Below are positions 19,154 to 54,700 of a stretch of DNA of 64,000 bases, piece after piece. Below the pieces are notes generated by a model that saw only the letters and a list, made by a program, of their open reading frames with translations, searched no databases and was not told the DNA's origin. The translations under genes and the position numbers were made by a program. The stretch is from Cytophagia bacterium (lineage in GTDB: Bacteria > Bacteroidota > Bacteroidia > Cytophagales > Spirosomataceae), in contig REAB01000049.1 in NCBI GenBank assembly GCA_004293645.1, positions 1 to 64,000 on the forward strand. Reading direction: 5' to 3'. The first letter of the stretch is position 1. Every line of letters begins with the position of its first letter.

Positions 19154-19783
19154 TCAAATTTGCTTTTTTACAAAAGCAGCCACTACTTTTTTTATTTTGC
19201 TTTTCACCTGACCCCAAGTTATTCCTTTCAAATCTTGTGGGTTTTGTCTTTCTTTTTCAGCATCTACAAAATAAGTAAGTGCCAATATAACGTGCCCTAT
19301 ATCGCTTTTTGGGTATTTTGTTTGATAGAACTCGAACATTTGGGGCAATGAATAGTGGCTTAATAATGCTGCTATGTCCCAAAAATCTTTTTTTACCCCC
19401 CTCGTAGCCATCGCCTCCAATTTCATCGGAATGATGTCGGGCATAGCCAAAAAACGGATGCCGTCTATTGTTTCTATTGGCTCAAGATAATCGTATTGGT
19501 GCAAGATTATATCTACTTTTATTTCATCAATGTTGAACCAAAGACTTTGTTTTCGTTGGTCTAATTTTATGGCTTGGGGCATAGCTCTTGTAATACCTCT
19601 TTCTACTTCTTCTCTGTCAAATGGTTTATTTGTAAACAAATCCAAATCTACGGATATGCGATGTCCCAATTTTAAGGATAAATTTGTTCCTCCTACAATG
19701 GCAAAGTCAGACAACTCATCAATTTGCATCAGTTTTTGGAGCAAACGATAGGTTTCAGGAGCTACGGTGTTTGTATAAAGCAT
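19154..19783 (-). CDS. AbiEii/AbiGii-type nucleotidyltransferase (putative toxin)
   Basis: 209 residues. The DNA polymerase-beta-type nucleotidyltransferase site is clear: AIVGGTNLSLKLGHRISVDLDLF, i.e. GG(T) followed by Asp46-x-Asp48. A later PMKLEAMATRGVKKDFWDI matches the Lys/Arg-rich block of AbiEii proteins. In the studied members the enzyme transfers nucleotides to RNA and blocks growth unless neutralised. The upstream 102-residue gene starts it off with a 4-bp gap and is the likely cognate partner. Toxicity here is inferred, not shown. Confidence 0.88.
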   Translation of the reverse strand: MLYTNTVAPETYRLLQKLMQIDELSDFAIVGGTNLSLKLGHRISVDLDLFTNKPFDREEVERGITRAMPQAIKLDQRKQSLWFNIDEIKVDIILHQYDYLEPIETIDGIRFLAMPDIIPMKLEAMATRGVKKDFWDIAALLSHYSLPQMFEFYQTKYPKSDIGHVILALTYFVDAEKERQNPQDLKGITWGQVKSKIKKVVAAFVKKQI

Positions 19784-19787
19784 ACGT

Positions 19788-20096
19788 TCAATATTGCCAA
19801 ACCGACCCCCTTGCTTTTCTTTGTTGGTATGCTCGAAAATCTTGTTCTTTTAAGTGAAGCACCAGACAAAGAAAAGACAAGGCCGTATCTTTAAAATAAG
19901 CTATTTCCACTACTTCTTTTTTTATTCTCGCCAACCCATAATATTTTAAAATTGCCACAATGTCGTTCCACGTTCCGTAGTTGAACACTTTATCCATCAC
20001 AAAAATACTGTTTTTTTCAAAGTCTATGTTGTCAAAATTTACGTCCCAAAAAGCAATTTTTGAAACAGCAGGCTTGGTTTGAGCGGTTTTTTTCAT
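19788..20096 (-). CDS. DUF6922-like protein, putative antitoxin of the AbiEii-like toxin
   Basis: 102 residues. IAFWDVNFDNIDFEKNSIFV followed by the helical KVFNYGTWNDIVAILKYYG matches the DUF6922 pattern that commonly precedes AbiEii-like genes in Bacteroidota. The tail is a short basic stretch. No recognised DNA-binding motif, unlike AbiEi, which carries a winged helix. It is separated from the toxin gene by 4 bp and from argS by 6 bp, so the pair may be transcribed from the argS promoter. Antitoxin role is inferred from context. Confidence 0.7.
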   Translation of the reverse strand: MKKTAQTKPAVSKIAFWDVNFDNIDFEKNSIFVMDKVFNYGTWNDIVAILKYYGLARIKKEVVEIAYFKDTALSFLCLVLHLKEQDFRAYQQRKARGSVWQY

Positions 20097-21917: not shown

Positions 21918-21993
21918 CTTCAATTTAATGACATTGATGAAACATTGATTCTATTTTCGTAGTTTTAAACCCACAATTAGAAGTTGTTTGGCT

Positions 21994-23529
21994 ATGAAAA
22001 AGCTGATTGAATGGTGCTTAATGGGTTGTTTGATTGGGGCAACGCCGCTGTGGGCGCAGTTGGCGCAGTCGCAGCGGTTGGAGTTCAAAACCAGTAGCTC
22101 AGGAAACGAATATTATGACCTCACGCCGCTGGGCGAGGCAGGTATTTTGGTTACGCAGCGACAAGAAGAATATTATATCAACGAAAAATGGACTTTTCAC
22201 CGCTACGATACGCTCCTTCGAGTCCGTTGGACCACCGAGTTTAAACTCGATTATGACCTAAAACCCCTGCTCACCTACCACAACGAAGATTTTGCATTTT
22301 GGCTTTTTGAAGAGGCCGACTCCGAAAAAATTCGCGTGCTGCGGTTGGATTTACAAACGGGCGAAACCGAGATATTTAAAGGAAATCTACTTACGAAGGC
22401 CAGCATCAGCCATTTTAAAGTATTGGGCAACACGGCGTTTATTGGCGGGTATTTTCACAGCCGCCCCGTGGTATTTGCGTTTTCGTTTTTCGACAAAACC
22501 ATCAAAGCCCTGCCCCATCTTTACGACGACAACACCGAAATTAGCAACATCGAAATAGACCCCAAACGCAATTTACTCAATGTGCTGCTCTACACTTTTA
22601 AGCGAAACAAGTGCCATTTTAACATCAAAACTTACAATTACGAAGGTCGCCTTTTGAAAGATGCCGTGGTCAATCCAGAAAACGGGAATGGCTTGATTTC
22701 GGGCAAAATTTTGCCTTTGGACGAAAATTTTTCGCTGCTCGTGGGCAATTACTCCCAGAGCTGCACGCAATACTCGCAAGGACTCTATTTTTCTCGCATT
22801 CAAGATACCGAACTCGACCAATTGCAATGGGTGGATTTTTCTAAACTCGAAAACTTTTTTAACTACCTCAAACCCAAGCGTAAGCAGCGTGTAATAGACA
22901 AAATATCGAAACAAAAAGAAGAAGGCAAAGAACCCAAATTTCGCTATCGGTTGCACGTGCACGACATCATTCAAACCCCCAACGAATTTGTGCTGGTGGC
23001 CGAGGTTTATTACCCCGTTTATCACAATGCGGGCGCATCTTACGGGGCTGGTGTGAGGGGCTTCAGCCACGATTTTGAAGGCTACCGCTACACCCACGCC
23101 ATTGTGTGTGGCTTTGACAAAACAGGTAACTTGCTCTGGGACAATTGTTTTGCCATTCAAAACGTAGAAAGTTATGACCTTTTGGACATGGTGCAAGTAA
23201 CGCAGCAAGGCGACTTGCTGGTGCTGGGCTACCCGCACGAGGGCAAAATTAACACCGAGGTAATAAAGCGGAGTAAGGTGGTGCAAGAACCCCAAGAATT
23301 TGAAATAAAAACCGCACAAGAAGGCGACAAAGTACTTAACAACGACAAAGGCTTGCTCACAGCTTGGTACGACCGCTATTTTTTGGCATTTGGCATTCAG
23401 CGCATCAGCAGCGAAAAACAAATCGGGCCCGCCCGTGAGGTTTTCTACATCAATAAGTTTGCCTACGACCCCACCGCCCCCAGCCCCCAGCCCGCTGCTA
23501 CCAAAGAAAACCCCAGAAAATCAGAATAG
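21994..23529 (+). CDS. Exported protein of unknown function, probable beta-propeller
   Basis: 511 residues from ATG 21994. Sec signal peptide MKKLIEWCLMGCLIGATPLWAQ. The mature part contains repeated units with F-W/Y-rich strands and Asp-rich turns (ILVTQRQEEYYINEKWTFHRYD, then VRWTTEFKLDYDLKPLL, FGEY-like loops and ALVVGYPHEG-like ends). This is what a propeller of beta blades looks like, but no named repeat is matched. The C terminus is Pro/Lys-rich (PTAPSPQPAATKENPRK). Likely periplasmic or surface. Alone between argS and the HNH module. Function unknown. Confidence 0.75.
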   Translation: MKKLIEWCLMGCLIGATPLWAQLAQSQRLEFKTSSSGNEYYDLTPLGEAGILVTQRQEEYYINEKWTFHRYDTLLRVRWTTEFKLDYDLKPLLTYHNEDFAFWLFEEADSEKIRVLRLDLQTGETEIFKGNLLTKASISHFKVLGNTAFIGGYFHSRPVVFAFSFFDKTIKALPHLYDDNTEISNIEIDPKRNLLNVLLYTFKRNKCHFNIKTYNYEGRLLKDAVVNPENGNGLISGKILPLDENFSLLVGNYSQSCTQYSQGLYFSRIQDTELDQLQWVDFSKLENFFNYLKPKRKQRVIDKISKQKEEGKEPKFRYRLHVHDIIQTPNEFVLVAEVYYPVYHNAGASYGAGVRGFSHDFEGYRYTHAIVCGFDKTGNLLWDNCFAIQNVESYDLLDMVQVTQQGDLLVLGYPHEGKINTEVIKRSKVVQEPQEFEIKTAQEGDKVLNNDKGLLTAWYDRYFLAFGIQRISSEKQIGPAREVFYINKFAYDPTAPSPQPAATKENPRKSE

Positions 23530-23534
23530 GCGCA

Positions 23535-23575
23535 TTTTGCAAAGCGAATGGTCAAGAAGTGCGTTTGCAACGCAC
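23535..23575 (+). repeat. 41-bp direct repeat, left copy (flanks the HNH module)
   Basis: Pairs with 24104-24144, with 38 of 41 bases identical. It ends in the hairpin GTGCGTTTGCAACGCAC (perfect 7-bp stems, 3-base loop). The TTTG inside the hairpin may be the -33 box of the gene at 23611. The two copies enclose exactly the small gene and the broken HNH gene. Confidence 0.85.
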
Positions 23576-23592
23576 GAAAAAATGTATATTTG
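23564..23592 (+). promoter_or_regulatory. Promoter of the small gene at 23611
   Basis: TTTG at 23564-23567, spacer of 17, TATATTTG at 23585-23592, then 18 bp to the ATG. Both boxes fit the Bacteroidota consensus. The -33 box lies within the left 41-bp repeat, so the repeat supplies part of the promoter; the right copy has no -7 box behind it. Confidence 0.55.
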
Positions 23593-23610
23593 TTGAAAAA
23601 ATTAGAAACT

Positions 23611-23847
23611 ATGACAGTAACAGAAGCGTTTGGCGATGTGGCGAGTATCATAGCCCAAATGGCCCCCGAAAAAATAGCAGCTCTCAAAGCTCCAAAAGTC
23701 ATGTCTGAACAAGTAGAGCAGTTGGTTTATCGTAAAAAGCAAGGTATCATTTCAACAGAAGAAACAGCAGAATTGGAGCGGTTTTTAGGGCTTGACTTAT
23801 TTATTGGACTCGCCAAAGCCCGCGCCCACCAACTCATGGCCAAATAA
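23611..23847 (+). CDS. Small helical protein, upstream partner of an HNH endonuclease
   Basis: 78 residues, no signal peptide. Mostly helical: TEAFGDVASIIAQMAPEKIA, then QVEQLVYRKKQGIISTEETAELERFL. The second half resembles small proteins that come just before HNH endonuclease genes in Bacteroidota and cyanobacteria; role unknown, perhaps antitoxin or accessory. Its TAA overlaps the ATG of the HNH pseudogene (TAATG), so the two were translationally coupled. The longer frame from 23548 runs through the repeat hairpin and the promoter and is rejected. Confidence 0.75.
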   Translation: MTVTEAFGDVASIIAQMAPEKIAALKAPKVMSEQVEQLVYRKKQGIISTEETAELERFLGLDLFIGLAKARAHQLMAK

Positions 23848-24067
23848 TGCGAAAAGCTATTCCAGAGCGGATAAGAACGATAGTCGCACAGCGAGCTAAG
23901 TTTTCAACCCACGAACTGACCAATGGGACGACCACTTCACAACCTTACACGGGGAAATCATAGCCAAAACTCGAATTGGTGAAGCAAGCATTAAGATTTT
24001 TAGATTTAATCAACCCGACTTGTTGATAATCAGACAAATACTGAGCGAATCAAGACGCTATCCGTGA
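23847..24067 (+). pseudogene. HNH endonuclease with internal deletion and frameshift
   Basis: The first 19 codons read MRKAIPERIRTIVAQRAKF, the standard N terminus of a short HNH endonuclease family. The frame then breaks. From 23921 another frame reads QWDDHFTTLHGEIIAKTRIG and continues FNQPDLLIIRQILSESRRYP before a stop at 24065-24067, the standard C terminus. The middle, which would carry the Cys-x2-Cys and H-N-H residues, is missing. So the catalytic core is lost and the gene is inactive, while both ends are well preserved, which suggests a recent deletion. Confidence 0.82.
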
Positions 24068-24103
24068 ACGAAAGAATAGTACTTTTGATTAGCGTTCGTT
24101 TGC

Positions 24104-24144
24104 TTTTGCAAAACGAATGGTTGAGAAGTGCGTTTGCAACGCAC
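24104..24144 (+). repeat. 41-bp direct repeat, right copy
   Basis: Second copy of the element at 23535-23575, same orientation, three substitutions, hairpin GTGCGTTTGCAACGCAC fully kept. The repeats are 569 bp apart start to start. Confidence 0.85.
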
Positions 24145-24256: not shown

Positions 24257-27200
24257 ATGAAATCCTTCCGTTTGTCCATATTATTGGTTTTTTGCGCATG
24301 GGCGGCCTGCGCCCAAAACACCAAAATCTCCGACGACCCCACGCAGTTTGTGGCCGACGTGCAAAAAATGATGGCCTTAGACCGCGTACCCAATTACCTC
24401 AAAGCGGCCAAAAACCTCGAAACGGTTTGGTTAGATACGCGGTTTACACCCGCCCATCAGCAAAAAACCGTGGCCATTACGCGCCGCCTGTTGGCAAAAG
24501 GCAACGTGCGCGGCAATGCCGTGTATGAGCAGTTTTTCAACGCCGTTTATGCCGCACTCAACGGTGCTTTTGCCGCCCCTGACCAACTCGAAGGCTTTTT
24601 GAACACCACCGCGCAGGTCATTGAAAACTACGACCCCAAAAATATGCTGAAATTTTTGGAAACAGGCCGTATTTTCTTCGAGTCGAGGCTCATTTATAAA
24701 GCCAATTTCAACCGCTTGTACGCCTTAGATGGCACGTTCAATTTTAGGTACAGTGAGGTCAATTCAGAGAAAACCATTGAAGCCGCCAAAGTCAATGCCG
24801 CCAACGACGGTTGGGGCAATGCCGTAGCCGATTCGAGCGGCGCGTCTGGCCCTATTTTTTACCAAAAAAAGGTAATTCCCAATGTGTCGGGGGCCATTAT
24901 TGAGTTCAAAGACGTAAGCCTCATTATGACTACCGCCAGCGACTCGGTGGTGGTGCGCGAAGCCAACGGCAAACTCGCCATACGCGAAGGTACGTGGGTG
25001 GGGGCGGGCGGAAAATTTAGCTGGGAAGTAGCAGGTGCGCCCGACATATTCGTGATTTTGACCAATTACAGCTTCAATGTAGCCAACCCCAAACTTCAAG
25101 CCGACGACGTGCGGCTGTCGTACGCAGCCAAGCTCAACAAATCGGTGGAGGGCGCGTTTGAGTATGAGAGCAAACGCCGCAACAAAGGGCAGCCTTCGCC
25201 TTATCCGCGGTTTATTTCATATCGCAACGATGCCAGTCTGCGCGGCCTCAGCAAAAACGTGCAGTACGCGGGCGGCTTGTCGTTGGTGGGCCTCAAAACA
25301 TCAAGCGCATCTCTGAGCGAAACCCCCAGTATTATTACGGTTTTGCAAAACGACAAAGTGGCTTTCAAGGCCAGTAGCCGCCGTTTTGAGTGGAGCGACT
25401 CGCTCATCACTGCGCCATTGGCCACTTTTTCGGCCCCCATTGGCCCCACCGACTCGCTCTACCACCCAGGCGTTCGGCTTTCTTACAACGACCGCGACGG
25501 CGTTTTGAAATGCGAACGCGCCGACCGAACGGGTTTTCAGGGGAAACCCTACGCCGACTCATACCACAAAATGTACATCGAAGCCCAAATGCTGCGCTGG
25601 GTTTTTAGCAAAAATCAACTCGAATTTTTGGTAGTAGCGGGCAAAACCGAAGTACCGATTGTGTTTGAGTCGTTCAATTATTTCAAAACCGAACGCTTCC
25701 GAGCCATCAGCGACGAGCTGTCGTTTCATCCGCTTTTGATGGTGGCCAACTACATTGCCAATCAAAAAACGCCGTTTTTTAGCCCCGAAGATTTGGCCGT
25801 GTTTTACAAAAAAGATGCCAACGTGATGCGCGGTGCGTGCAACCAAATGCTCTTGGAAGATTATTTTGAAGCAGAACCCAGCAACGGGTTGCTCAAACTG
25901 AGCCGCAAGGGAGCTTTGTATGTGTTGGCCAACAATAAACAAACCGATTTTGACAACCTGCGCATCATCTCGCTTTACCAAGCCAACGCCCAAATGGCCA
26001 ATGCCTCCATTGACTTCAACAGCAAAGAGCTCATTATCAGGGGCGTGAACCAGTTTGTGATTAGTGATTCGCTCAAAATCTTTGCGTATCCGTCTGATAA
26101 GCAGGTGCGGGTGTTGAAAAATCGTGATTTTTGGATGAATGGCCTGCTCAAATCGGCCAACTTCCGCTTCAATGGCCGCGATTTGCAGTTTAATTATGAA
26201 AAGTTTTTTGTTGATTTGAACAAAATTGACAACATCACCTACGTCCCAAAAAATATGTACGAAAAAGGTGGCTCGACCGAAGTAGGCGGCGACGTAGTTT
26301 ATGAAAAATCGGGTCGCATTTACCTCAACGACCCCAAAAATAAATCAGGAAAAAACAAAAACTCGGTCTTTCCTCGTTTGTCTGTTCCAGAAGGAATGAC
26401 CGTCTATTTTGACCAACCCGACCGTGGCAATTTGGCTTATAATCGAAAGGTATTCTTCAAGATTCCTACCATTGACTACGACAGCCTCGGTACGCAAGAT
26501 ATTATGTTTATTGGTACTTTTGAGTCGGGAGGAATTATGCCGCCTTTCCAAGCTCAACTGCGTTCCATGGAAGACAACTCGCTGGGTTTTAAGTATATAT
26601 CTCCTGCGGCGGGTTTTAAATTGTATGGCACAAATACCACTGTTAAGTTCAACAAAGAGCTGGTAATGGACAAGCAGGGGCTGCGGTCGCAGGGCGAAAT
26701 TAGCCATTTCAGCGCCCGTATTCCCACGCAATCTATGCTCTTTATGACCGACTCGCTGATGGCCAGCGGCGCAGAAGCCCAAATCAAGGAAGCAACCATC
26801 GGCAAAACGTATTTTCCGAACGTAGAACTTCGTAATTATACCATGTGTTGGGTGCCCAAAGCCGACAGTATGTCGCTCACTACCAAGGGAAACGATTTTA
26901 ATTTTTACATGGGAAGCACCAAATTAGAAGGCCGGCTTCTGCTGCGTTCGACAGGCTTGTACGGCAAAGGATTTTTAAAACGGGACGACTCCGAGCTGAC
27001 TTCGCAAGACATTAAATTTAACAAAGAAGGCTTTTTGGCGGGCGATGCCCAGTACAAAATTGTGTCGGCTCAAAACAACATTCGGCCCGTGTTGTTGGGC
27101 CGCAACGTGGACGTAGATTTCAACATTGTGAAGGGCTTGGTTAATATTGCAACCAACAACCAAACGTTGGAAGAAGCGTCGAGTTTTGAGTTTCCGTCGG

Positions 27201-29161
27201 CGGCTTATCGGACTTCCATCAACCGCGCCCAGTGGAACATCAACGCCAAGACCATTGCCATGAAAGGCAACGTTAATACCTCTACTTTTATGGCCACCGC
27301 CCCCGAACAAGAAGGGCTGGTGTTCAACGGGTCGGCGGCTTTGTACGAAATTGAAAAAGCATCGCTCAACATCAGTGGTGTGCCATTTATCAAAACCGCC
27401 GATGCCAAAGTGCTGCCCGACAAGGGTTTGGTAACCATTAAACGCAACGGCGAAATGCTGCCTTTCCAAAAAGCACGCTTGGTGCTCGACACCCTCAACG
27501 AGTACCACCGCCTCAAAAATGGCAACATTCAGATTGTGTCCAAAAACAAATTTACGGGCGATGCCACCTACCTCTACACCACCGTTTCTAACGACACAAT
27601 ACCCGTCAAAATGGGCAATTTTGAGTTAAGAGAAATGGCCGCTGCAACTACACTCCCCACCAGCAGCAGGAACAACAAAACGGCAAAACCAGTTCGGGGT
27701 TCAACTACCGTAGCCCGCGCCGAAATTGGCGAAAGCCAGAATTTTATGGTAGCTTCTCGACTGCAATACAAGGGTGCTATGACCATGCTCGCCGCCGAAC
27801 CAAACCTGCAATTCAACGGTTTTGTGAGAACGCTCCTCAAAAAACGCCCTAATTTGGAGGTTTCGTGGGTACTATTCAAAGAAAACCCGACCAAAGACAT
27901 TGCCATTAACATCACGCCCAGTCTCAAAAACGAAGTAGAACAGCCCATTTCGGTAGGTTTACACTACCGCACCGGAGCCGACGGGCTCTATCCAACGTTT
28001 TTGTCGGCCAAAGAATCTAAAAATGACCAAACCATTTTTACGGCACAAGGCCAAATGCGCTTTGACGATAAAACGAAGTCGTTTAAGATTATGCCCGAAG
28101 CCAAGACCGCCAACGAACTCACAGACGAAGAAAACGCCTACACCTTTAACGATGCCAAGGGAACGTTCAATTTTATGGGGCGGCTCAACCTACTCAACGA
28201 CCGCGCCAAAGAAGGCGAAGAGCTGTTTTTGTCGGCGGGTTCGGTGCAGGCCAACGTTGATAGCAGCACTTATAAATTTAATACGCTGCTTTCGCTCAAT
28301 TTTCCTGCCAACCGCGAACTGGTAGCCAAAGTGGCACAAAACATGGTACAGAGCAATTTGGACGAACAAAACAGCGACCCTGCCGAGCCAGAATGGGCCC
28401 GTCTGAGCAGTAAATTGAGCGCCTTGGTTGGCCGAAAAGCCGCCGAAAGCTACGTCAATCGGGCGGCGGCCAACTACCGTCCGCTGCACGAGGCATCACC
28501 AAAAATGAACACCACGCTGGTACTCTCGAACGTTAATCTGCGGTGGTCGGCAGCCCAAAATGCTTTTTATAGCGTTGGTAAAATTGGCGTATCAAACCTC
28601 AATACCACCGACATCAACGCCCAAATGGACGGTATGTTGGAAATAAGAAAAAGCCCGCGTGGCGACGAAATAAGCATTTATTTGGCCGCCTCCGACGACC
28701 TGTGGTATTATTTTGACTGGCAACAAGGCAAACTGGCGGTGGTGGTGTCGGTGCAAGAAATAAACGATTTATTGATGGTCAAATCGAAAGGTGAGAAATC
28801 GAAAGAATCAGGTATCATTCCGATTGGGTTCGAAGAACGCGATTTGTTTGTAGATAGATTTACGACGCTTTACCGGCCTAAACCACCCAAAAAAGCACCG
28901 CCCGTTGTAGCTGGCAAAAATGCCAAAACACCCGCCAACAAAAACGCTACCACCGCGCCAACGCCAGCGGGCAAAAAACCTGCCGTCGCGGCTGCACCTG
29001 AGCCAGAAGAGGAGGCCATCGAAGACACCAAAACCACCGACCCCAAGTCCAAAACTACCGACCCCAAGGCCAAAACCACGGGAAAAGTAGTCCAAACGCC
29101 CGCCGCCAAACCACCCGTAAAAAAACCAAGTAAAAAAGAGGAAGAGAAAGAAGGGTTCTAA
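24257..29161 (+). CDS. Giant exported protein of unknown function
   Basis: 1634 residues from the ATG at 24257. A Sec signal peptide (MKSFRLSILLVFCAWAACAQ; the Cys could also be a lipobox) precedes an N-terminal helical part (residues ~20-130). Then comes a very long beta-rich body with repeated short strands such as IPNVSGAIIEFKDVSLIM and ITYVPKNMYEKGGSTEVGGD. The last ~110 residues are a low-complexity tail of Lys, Pro, Ala and Thr with tandem TTDPKSKTTDPKAKTT. No named domain or T9SS sorting tail recognised. Periplasmic or outer-membrane-facing location likely. Of the beta-rich, LptD-like or solenoid type at most; function not assigned. Confidence 0.8.
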   Translation: MKSFRLSILLVFCAWAACAQNTKISDDPTQFVADVQKMMALDRVPNYLKAAKNLETVWLDTRFTPAHQQKTVAITRRLLAKGNVRGNAVYEQFFNAVYAALNGAFAAPDQLEGFLNTTAQVIENYDPKNMLKFLETGRIFFESRLIYKANFNRLYALDGTFNFRYSEVNSEKTIEAAKVNAANDGWGNAVADSSGASGPIFYQKKVIPNVSGAIIEFKDVSLIMTTASDSVVVREANGKLAIREGTWVGAGGKFSWEVAGAPDIFVILTNYSFNVANPKLQADDVRLSYAAKLNKSVEGAFEYESKRRNKGQPSPYPRFISYRNDASLRGLSKNVQYAGGLSLVGLKTSSASLSETPSIITVLQNDKVAFKASSRRFEWSDSLITAPLATFSAPIGPTDSLYHPGVRLSYNDRDGVLKCERADRTGFQGKPYADSYHKMYIEAQMLRWVFSKNQLEFLVVAGKTEVPIVFESFNYFKTERFRAISDELSFHPLLMVANYIANQKTPFFSPEDLAVFYKKDANVMRGACNQMLLEDYFEAEPSNGLLKLSRKGALYVLANNKQTDFDNLRIISLYQANAQMANASIDFNSKELIIRGVNQFVISDSLKIFAYPSDKQVRVLKNRDFWMNGLLKSANFRFNGRDLQFNYEKFFVDLNKIDNITYVPKNMYEKGGSTEVGGDVVYEKSGRIYLNDPKNKSGKNKNSVFPRLSVPEGMTVYFDQPDRGNLAYNRKVFFKIPTIDYDSLGTQDIMFIGTFESGGIMPPFQAQLRSMEDNSLGFKYISPAAGFKLYGTNTTVKFNKELVMDKQGLRSQGEISHFSARIPTQSMLFMTDSLMASGAEAQIKEATIGKTYFPNVELRNYTMCWVPKADSMSLTTKGNDFNFYMGSTKLEGRLLLRSTGLYGKGFLKRDDSELTSQDIKFNKEGFLAGDAQYKIVSAQNNIRPVLLGRNVDVDFNIVKGLVNIATNNQTLEEASSFEFPSAAYRTSINRAQWNINAKTIAMKGNVNTSTFMATAPEQEGLVFNGSAALYEIEKASLNISGVPFIKTADAKVLPDKGLVTIKRNGEMLPFQKARLVLDTLNEYHRLKNGNIQIVSKNKFTGDATYLYTTVSNDTIPVKMGNFELREMAAATTLPTSSRNNKTAKPVRGSTTVARAEIGESQNFMVASRLQYKGAMTMLAAEPNLQFNGFVRTLLKKRPNLEVSWVLFKENPTKDIAINITPSLKNEVEQPISVGLHYRTGADGLYPTFLSAKESKNDQTIFTAQGQMRFDDKTKSFKIMPEAKTANELTDEENAYTFNDAKGTFNFMGRLNLLNDRAKEGEELFLSAGSVQANVDSSTYKFNTLLSLNFPANRELVAKVAQNMVQSNLDEQNSDPAEPEWARLSSKLSALVGRKAAESYVNRAAANYRPLHEASPKMNTTLVLSNVNLRWSAAQNAFYSVGKIGVSNLNTTDINAQMDGMLEIRKSPRGDEISIYLAASDDLWYYFDWQQGKLAVVVSVQEINDLLMVKSKGEKSKESGIIPIGFEERDLFVDRFTTLYRPKPPKKAPPVVAGKNAKTPANKNATTAPTPAGKKPAVAAAPEPEEEAIEDTKTTDPKSKTTDPKAKTTGKVVQTPAAKPPVKKPSKKEEEKEGF

Positions 29162-51757: not shown

Positions 51758-54700
51758 CTATCGGGCGTACAGTACTTTTTTGTGCAACGTTTGGGTTTTT
51801 TGACTCACCAACGAACGGGCGGTAAGCCGCACCAAGTACATTCCAGCGGCCACATTTTGGTTGTATCGGTTCGTCCCGTTCCAAGTTGCCACTTGCCATT
51901 TGGCATCGGTATTGTAAGAAACATACGACTCCGAAGAAATGACTTTACCGCTTAAATCCATAATTTGTACCAATACTTCGAGGTCGTCGCCTTCGGTTAG
52001 CGGGCTAATTTGAATGGTCGTTTGTTCAGAAAAAGGATTCGGGAAAACGACTACTTCTTTCAAGATGGCTTCGCGTTGCGTTACTATAAATTTTAACGTT
52101 GCCTCCGTTGAGTTATTGTAGGTGTCCCATACTTTTAGGCGCAGTTGGTGTGGCCCAGCAGGGAGCTGGCTAAACGGAAAGCGAATAGTACCTGCTCGAA
52201 AATCGTCTTGATTGGCCACAAAATAATCGTTCACGGCCAAGCGGAGGGTATCGTTGAGGGTCAAAATCATATCTTGGCCAATGCCTACCCGCGATAGATT
52301 CAAGCCATTTTCGTCGGTCAGTTTGGCTATCAACAACGGTGTATCATCTACGTTGTCGCCGTCCGTAAAATTTTCATTGTTCAAAAATAGTTGCAGCGCG
52401 GGCGGTTTGTTGTCGGTAGCAAGCAGGTCGGTGCCACCCACCAAAATTCGATTGTTGCCACCTGCCGCGTCGGTGAGGCTGTCGTTGCTAACGGCATAAA
52501 CCGATACGCGCCCATTGCCGAGTCGATAATCAATGTTTTTGGGAACCACAAACTGCACCACAAAACGCCCGTTGCGTACGGTTACTTTGCCTTCAAAGAG
52601 CTTGCTGTCAAACTGACCGTATCGCATGGGCGGGCTTTCGGTACCGCGCGTTAGGAGCTGGGTTTCTTTGTCAAATACCGATACCGTAGCCGTACCGTTG
52701 AAGGCCGTTAATAGTTGGTTTTGTTGGCGAATTTCGCCCGTTAATTGAACTAATTTGCCCGCCTTCAAGGTGTCGTTGGTGGTTACAACTATTTGATTTT
52801 CGGGATAATCCAGCCGCGCGGAAGGGTCGCCGAGGAGCGTAAAATTGCGATTTAGTACACCACTGAGGCTGTTGTTTTTGGTAATGCGCATCACGTCGCC
52901 GAGGCGTGGCATTTGGCCATCAATGGGCTGAAAAACAGTGCCATAAAACGCTTGATTAAGCAAAAAATTAGTATTGGCAAACACGGGTCGCGCGGTGGTA
53001 AGCATGGCAATGGCTCCGCCGCGCGGACTCAAAACGGCCAGTTCTGCCCCCGAAACCACGTTTGGGTTGTCAAAACGGCCAAACTCGCAGGTGGCCGTAA
53101 CCATGAGCGGCAGCTTGTTGAGATTGCGCCAACCAAACAAATCTTGCAACGTCAAAATCTGCTCTTCGGCCCAAATAGACTCGCCGCCGTGGCCAGTGTA
53201 GTTTAAAATAAGCGTGCCGTTGTTTACGGTTTGGTCAATGCGGCGGTTTATTTCGGGGGCGCGTTGGGTAGCCGTAGAAACCACCTGCTGAAAAGCATCC
53301 ACGTAAATTTTGGTGAGGTCGTAAGTGCTGGTATTGCGTTCAATAATTCGTGCCAAATCGTCGGCATCTTGTTGGTGAATGTTGGAGTCGCCGTCGTCGG
53401 CTACAAAAGCTACCCGCTGTTGCCAACGGCCACGGCTATTTTTTTGGGTATAATTGATGAGTTTATCCACCAGTACGCGGGCTTCTTCGCGGCTTTTGGC
53501 GGGCAAACGCCCCACTCCCACATCAAGCAAATGGTTGCCGCCGTAGTCTTCAGTCCATTGGCCATCGTTGGGTTTTAGGAAGCCAAAAAAATCGTCGGAC
53601 GAGTAACTAAAAACGGGCTGCGCTGATTCTCGGCTTTCGTAAGTTGGCACAAAATTGGCCATTTGTACGGCTTCTTGGTTGCGGGTATTGTTTTTAAAAT
53701 CGAAAGACGCATCGCCAAATAGCAACAAGTATTTGAGCTTATTGGGCTGGCGGTCGTTGAGGTATTTGGCAAAATCTCGAATGGCTACGGGGTCGAGTCT
53801 TCCCGACGAAAACTCGTTGAATACTTGTGGTATTGTAACCACCAACACATCTAATTTGTCGTGCGTTTTACGAAAATTGGCCAGTCTTTGAGCTTGGGCC
53901 AGCCATGCCGCACCCGTAACGATGAGCAAATCGGGCGTGGCGGCGGCGCGTAGTTTTTGGTTGGCCACCGCTACCGCCGAAACGGGCGTTTGCAATTGAG
54001 TTTCAGTAAATAAGAGAAAGCGTCGCAATGCGCGACCCGCCGCGCCAAAAACTGCTTCTTGACCATTGAGCCGTAGTAGTTGGTTGCGCGGGCGTAAGCC
54101 GTCGGTTACGTCCCACACTTGCAATGCTGCCGTGGCTTGGCCAATGGTATATTGCACCGAGTCTTGCTGCAAACTGGCCAAACTTTGTACCACCGTTGGT
54201 TCGTCGTAAAAGCGCAGCGTTCGTCTAAATTGTACGCCCAAAAAATCGAGATAGCCCTCGGCAGTGCTTTGCCCCGCTTTGTCAAAAACCACGCCCACGC
54301 GCAAACGGCTGGCCTCGGGCGGGAGCGTACCCGCGTGGGCTTGCAGCGTACGTTGGCCTTTGAGGTCGTAGCGGTAGGTAGAAACGGTGGCTATATTTTG
54401 CGAACCAACGGCCTGCCCGTTGAGCAGCAAATTAAATTTTGTAACTACTTGTGCCGCCGCCACTGTGGCCGCGTGGAGCAAAAAAGGCGTGTTTGGTTGT
54501 GCGCCAAGCGTTTCAAAAACAAACTCTTGTTGGGCTTGACTACCAAAATACTCGCCCCACCATTCGCGTCCCGACTGAATGCGATTGACTGACTCGGTTT
54601 CTCGAAAAACGTATTCGTCGTAAAAATTGATAAGTGGGCCGCTGGTACCTGCTCGCTGGTCGGCAAGTCGAAGTCCAGGGGCATTGCCCAATTGTAAAAA

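Follow-up and report, generated by a model that had tools for sequence, protein, structure and literature searches.

The window, a stretch of 64,000 nucleotides from a Cytophagia bacterium (Spirosomataceae), lies on contig C134 of a 4.63-Mb genome (241 contigs, 91% complete), the sole member of its genus among the genomes searched. Between two genes without a Pfam family it carries a module of ∼0.53 kb, composed of an intact 78-codon gene (the partner) and an HNH nuclease pseudogene, and flanked by two direct repeats (Table 1). The stop codon of the partner overlaps the start codon of the HNH gene as TAATG, which bears out the gene arrangement of the original prediction. Upstream, a TTTG is followed after 17 bp by TATATTTG, an arrangement which we take to be the Bacteroidota −33/−7 promoter consensus; the TTTG sits inside the hairpin of the left repeat. 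The −7 motif considered on its own (TAnnTTTG) was found no more than 110 bp upstream in 35 of 87 modules of the family, compared with 15 of 329 shifted controls. For the window partner, no convincing match was obtained to any Pfam, NCBIfam, or PADLOC family, antitoxin families included, these family searches detected no antitoxin DNA-binding domain, and PDB profile searches gave nothing convincing. The fold predicted from its single sequence was all-helical but poor (mean pLDDT 66).

Table 1. Features of the module in the window and nature of the flanking repeats at other modules.
Feature	Positions	Strand	Remarks
Upstream neighbour gene	21988–23529	+	513 aa; no Pfam family; left repeat starts 6 bp past its stop
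Left direct repeat (41 bp)	23535–23575	+	interpreted as one of the two target copies; hairpin 23559–23575 within
Putative Bacteroidota-type promoter	23564–23592	+	TTTG 23564–23567, 17 bp, TATATTTG 23585–23592
Partner gene, putative antidote	23611–23847	+	78 codons; intact
HNH nuclease pseudogene	23847–24067	+	190 bp deleted internally near 23902/23903; the two ends no longer share a frame
Second hairpin	24091–24119 (approximate limits)	+	partly within the right repeat
Right direct repeat (41 bp)	24104–24144	+	38/41 identical; hairpin 24128–24144 within
Downstream neighbour gene	24257–29161	+	1634 aa; conserved across the order; no Pfam family
Repeat at L129			final 99 bp of a 584-codon ORF
Repeat at L010			permease-like 3′ end (named by eye)
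Repeat at L128			histidine-kinase-like gene end (named by eye)
Repeat at L051			32 bp; takes in the final 9 nt of the upstream gene
Repeat at L058			codons 7–16 of the downstream gene
Repeat at L224			5′ end of the downstream DUF1156 gene, Geminocystis plasmid
Repeat at L187			exact 26-mer, non-coding DNA
Repeat at L191			exact 16-mer
Repeats at L074 and L188			hairpin sequences

Compared with an intact relative (L127), the window HNH gene lacks a single block of 190 bp, and the alignment requires no other indel. The missing block comprises the whole CxxC…H…CxxC core; both conserved ends are present and the catalytic middle is gone, as had been predicted. The 5′ end still encodes 19 conserved residues before running into 19 unrelated residues and a stop codon; the 3′ end is read in another frame. 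Because the two ends are in different frames, this is a frameshifted pseudogene and not a shortened gene, and the HNH protein can no longer be produced from the locus. The relict 3′ frame has stayed open over about 54 codons, which is consistent with a fairly recent loss. The claim that the nuclease was switched off recently while the partner remained open is supported, with the loss looking recent on account of that open frame.

The two repeats, at a spacing of 569, are real: each copy contains a perfect 7-bp-stem hairpin, no further copy is present in the window, and no such pair arose in 100 shuffles of it. They do bracket the two genes, but not exactly, as had been stated, since 35 bp separate the left repeat from the ATG and 36 bp the HNH stop from the right repeat. 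The right repeat, together with the sequence just left of it, forms a double hairpin that surpassed all 200 shuffles (z −4.2); folding of the left repeat was unremarkable by the same comparison (z −0.8). Genome-wide, the repeat core occurs just twice, plus one place with three mismatches in a 20-mer, and the sequence was not found in the 60 other family genomes searched. Since other modules are flanked by other repeats, too (see below), the 41-bp repeat is not the unit's own end, as the original prediction had implied; a shared end of a mobile element was rejected on the same absence from the 60 genomes. A third TTTGCAA-centred double hairpin (L019; G000:C191, about 53470–53509) lies in an intergenic region without an adjoining HNH module and has little in common with the window copies outside the hairpin. 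With two copies and a weak one, and no further such hairpin in 589 kb of sampled genome sequence that included the window, a large family of hairpin repeats in this genome was likewise rejected. An empty counterpart of the window locus was sought in two family genomes and in ten named relatives identified through the 1634-aa downstream gene (nine Runella records and one Spirosomataceae MAG; 63–69% identity over the best segment), and none was found. Near the conserved downstream gene, none of these genomes has a convincing counterpart of the 513-aa upstream gene (best E 0.09), which makes the empty site unreadable.

Profiles built from 11 partners and from 14 HNH proteins were used to follow the module through the family. 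The partner profile gave 91 matches in 51 of 222 family genomes, the HNH profile 99 places in 58 of the same genomes; when 291 genomes of the order were searched, no more than three outside the family contained the module. Wherever the HNH match was strong (136 bits or more; 64 of 64 places), a partner lies directly upstream. The 21 HNH places without a family partner comprise 14 that form a subgroup B (L183–L196; 105–124 bits) and seven weak ones (below 73 bits). The intact HNH relatives have zinc-finger-like CxxC pairs, all 14 match PF01844, and they conform to the HNH endonuclease superfamily. On cyanobacterial plasmids, HNH genes were present in 34 records; among the 18 that were viewed, 17 have a small gene directly upstream, and 15 of these genes match the partner profile at 6e−19 or better. 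For the plasmid HNH gene L369, no partner is annotated.

The plasmid partners (upstream genes L220–L227 and L360–L368) carry an N-terminal extension, ribbon-helix-helix-like by eye, which is absent from the window protein; it gave one weak RelB-type match (E 0.011), in L364, which is itself weakly related. Integrase genes adjoin many of the plasmid copies. Two plasmids of Synechocystis PCC 6714 (L225 and L366) have a 1346-bp block in common (96%), in which the module is accompanied by part of an integrase gene; in L366, the second copy, the HNH gene is unannotated. Carriage of the module by viruses was rejected, as no relative of the 78-aa protein was present in viral contigs, where the HNH matches covered the core domain only.

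The state of the two genes was compared across 87 modules, that is, the 91 partner matches minus four partial ones (G121:C94, G202:C131, G118:C50, and G121:C267). Both genes are intact in 57; the HNH gene is broken and the partner intact in 24, both are broken in four, and in one the HNH gene is cut by a contig end. The reverse, a broken partner with an intact HNH gene, was found once (L053, stop near the partner start). If losses were governed by gene length alone (136 vs 78 codons), about nine of the 25 single losses would be expected to fall in the partner. Since the initial survey of the family started from the partner, these counts favour intact partners, which the HNH-anchored search corrects in part. 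Mapped onto a tree of 85 partners, which has few columns, the broken state (28 of the 87 HNH genes) requires 21 or more changes and is not clustered; the window locus is therefore one of many parallel defusings. Internal deletions that leave parts of both ends of the HNH gene are present in L066, L105, and L118 as well, and the profile match of L129 covers just the 3′ part. Loss (24 vs 1) thus ran in the one direction to be expected if the partner resembles an antidote and, as far as sequences can tell, fits a toxic nuclease with its antidote.

Close-fitting flanking direct repeats were present at 11 of 119 modules (87 of the family, 14 of subgroup B, and 18 on plasmids), compared with an expectation of 0.07 from mismatched pairs or 0.58 from shifted placements, and their sequence is different at each of the 11 sites. 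At L129, L010, L051, L058, and L224, the repeats are duplicated pieces of neighbouring genes. Four of the 11 cases have plausible other causes: similar hairpin repeats occur elsewhere in the genome of L074, which also scored high in the shifted control; the repeats of L188 and L191 are hairpin elements; and those of L128 are the ends of homologous kinase genes. Empty sites were found for L058 in two sister genomes, in which the flanks lie 173 and 141 bp apart with no module between them and the repeat is present as a single copy inside the gene. For L187, the comparison was partial only. The flanks of L051 are present in four sister genomes without the module; each of the two gaps read holds another small gene, and the gaps in G118 and G123 are outside these two. 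The repeats and the empty sites of L058 support the notion of a mobile two-gene unit. Relatives that have both genes but no repeats, which had been named in advance as evidence against it, are in fact the majority, as 108 of the 119 modules lack a repeat above threshold; however, this is the wrong test if the repeat is a site-specific duplicated target that decays with age.

Taken together, we consider it somewhat better than an even bet (probability just under 0.6) that the module is a selfish nuclease–antidote unit which inserted with a long, variable target duplication and was defused in this genome. The downstream HNH protein would be a DNA-cutting enzyme that harms the host unless restrained, and the small, translationally coupled upstream partner would be its antidote; we infer both the toxicity and the antidote action. 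The module would have inserted into intergenic DNA downstream of the 513-aa gene, duplicating about 41 bp of target together with its hairpin. Later, the nuclease would have lost its catalytic core to the 190-bp deletion, with the antidote gene left open. The nuclease is presumably lost first and the antidote kept because cells tolerate this order but not the opposite one. As a general explanation of the repeats, duplication at insertion fares best, and recombination through short homology is a serious competitor; the duplication would arise in the act of insertion, through staggered breaks and repair, and not by crossover through short homology. A bolder version, in which nuclease and antidote alone make up an autonomous mobile element of ∼0.5 kb, widely staggered nicks by the nuclease itself create the duplications, so that the enzyme that kills would also carry out the insertion, and hairpins or gene ends are the favoured targets, appears quite improbable.

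The repeats could also have come about without any duplication at insertion. It is conceivable, if somewhat unlikely, that the module rides on longer DNA and enters at gene ends by homologous or site-specific exchange, carrying a foreign gene end with it, the repeats being att-like or homology footprints. Gene ends are indeed the sites in several cases, and most codon differences between the L129 copies, counted by hand, are synonymous, so this repeat is better read as a foreign gene end than as a decaying duplicate; the 1346-bp block on the two Synechocystis plasmids and the integrases beside many plasmid copies point in the same direction. However, exchange of this kind is difficult to reconcile with a sequence that differs at every site, with the lack of an integrase between repeats that closely fit the module, and with the exact 26-bp repeat of L187 in non-coding DNA. 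The window repeats might, alternatively, be two copies of a hairpin element resembling a REP or a terminator, rare but dispersed, that stand behind two neighbouring genes, with the module just lying between them or having entered by recombination between such elements. This is made unlikely by the 38/41 identity of the window copies, which the third, weaker place on C191 resembles in little but the hairpin, by the 589-kb sample without another such hairpin, and by the five modules where the repeats are pieces of neighbouring genes and not hairpin elements, even though C191 has its double hairpin in an intergenic region without a module and hairpin repeats also surround L074, L188, and L191.

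A different objection concerns the pair itself, which need not be addictive: the HNH nuclease might serve in phage defence or housekeeping, with the partner as an accessory that is lost at leisure. The 14 HNH proteins scanned match, besides the Pfam HNH family, the PtuB models of PADLOC (weakly), and defence-annotated genes are located near some plasmid copies. However, no PtuA-like ATPase is annotated beside any of the 18 plasmid copies viewed, no relative was found in 50,697 phage records, the viral contigs yielded core-domain matches only, and losses at leisure do not predict the one-way order, all of which renders this explanation distinctly unlikely.

Several known systems resemble the selfish nuclease–antidote unit favoured here. 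According to the work of Kobayashi and colleagues, restriction-modification systems insert with long, variable target duplications on the order of 100 bp (PMC3031569, PMC3874152). The module has in common with these genes both the long, variable direct repeats of the target around it and the combination of a nuclease with a protecting partner that outlasts it (PMC3031569, PMC3874152). In contrast to them, it totals ∼0.5 kb, its partner is small and helical (in a low-confidence model), and no methyltransferase lies between the window repeats, the 78-aa partner being without a family match; the module thus works like the restriction-modification class but is not a member of it. Like type II toxin–antitoxin systems, it has a small upstream gene that overlaps or touches one resembling a toxic enzyme (paired in 64/64 strong HNH matches), is carried by plasmids and chromosomes, and loses the putative toxin gene before the other; unlike in these systems, the second gene is HNH DNase-like and the partner belongs to no Pfam, NCBIfam, or PADLOC antitoxin family. 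Literature searches for the HNH–partner pair as a toxin–antitoxin system found nothing on the pair among the results listed, and those on orphan antitoxins and on cassettes with target duplications contributed nothing to the comparison. The perfect hairpin of the window repeat, and the double hairpin formed by the right copy with its flank, are reminiscent of REP and MITE sequences, but only two copies and one weak relative exist in the genome, and there are other modules whose repeats lack such hairpins. Free-standing HNH homing endonucleases share the HNH domain and the apparent mobility; in contrast to these, the main group is always paired, its site is different in each case, and no phage relatives were found.

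To our knowledge, the mechanism of insertion with long target duplication, proposed for restriction-modification genes, is still open. If our reading is true, the same footprint is left by a much smaller nuclease–antidote unit in Bacteroidota and, in one plasmid case, in cyanobacteria, which would suggest that mobility with long duplication belongs to addictive nucleases generally. The module is small enough to be rebuilt and tested, and its partner would add a candidate antidote family, so far uncatalogued, for which many naturally defused copies exist.

In nine of its 14 places, subgroup B pairs the HNH gene with a longer upstream ORF as a partner of its own; in the other five, no upstream ORF of at least 90 aa was found, and these five, like the plasmid gene L369, count against the nuclease–antidote reading. 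Three of the 14 places have flanking direct repeats of 16 to 131 bp. In L196, a conserved cysteine of the second CxxC pair is replaced by arginine (CIGR), and this copy may therefore be inactive. The window also contains a second toxin–antitoxin-like pair on the minus strand (19154–20096), about 3.4 kb from the module, which consists of a 209-aa AbiEii-type nucleotidyltransferase (PF08843, E 4.9e−13) and an adjoining 102-aa DUF6922 gene.
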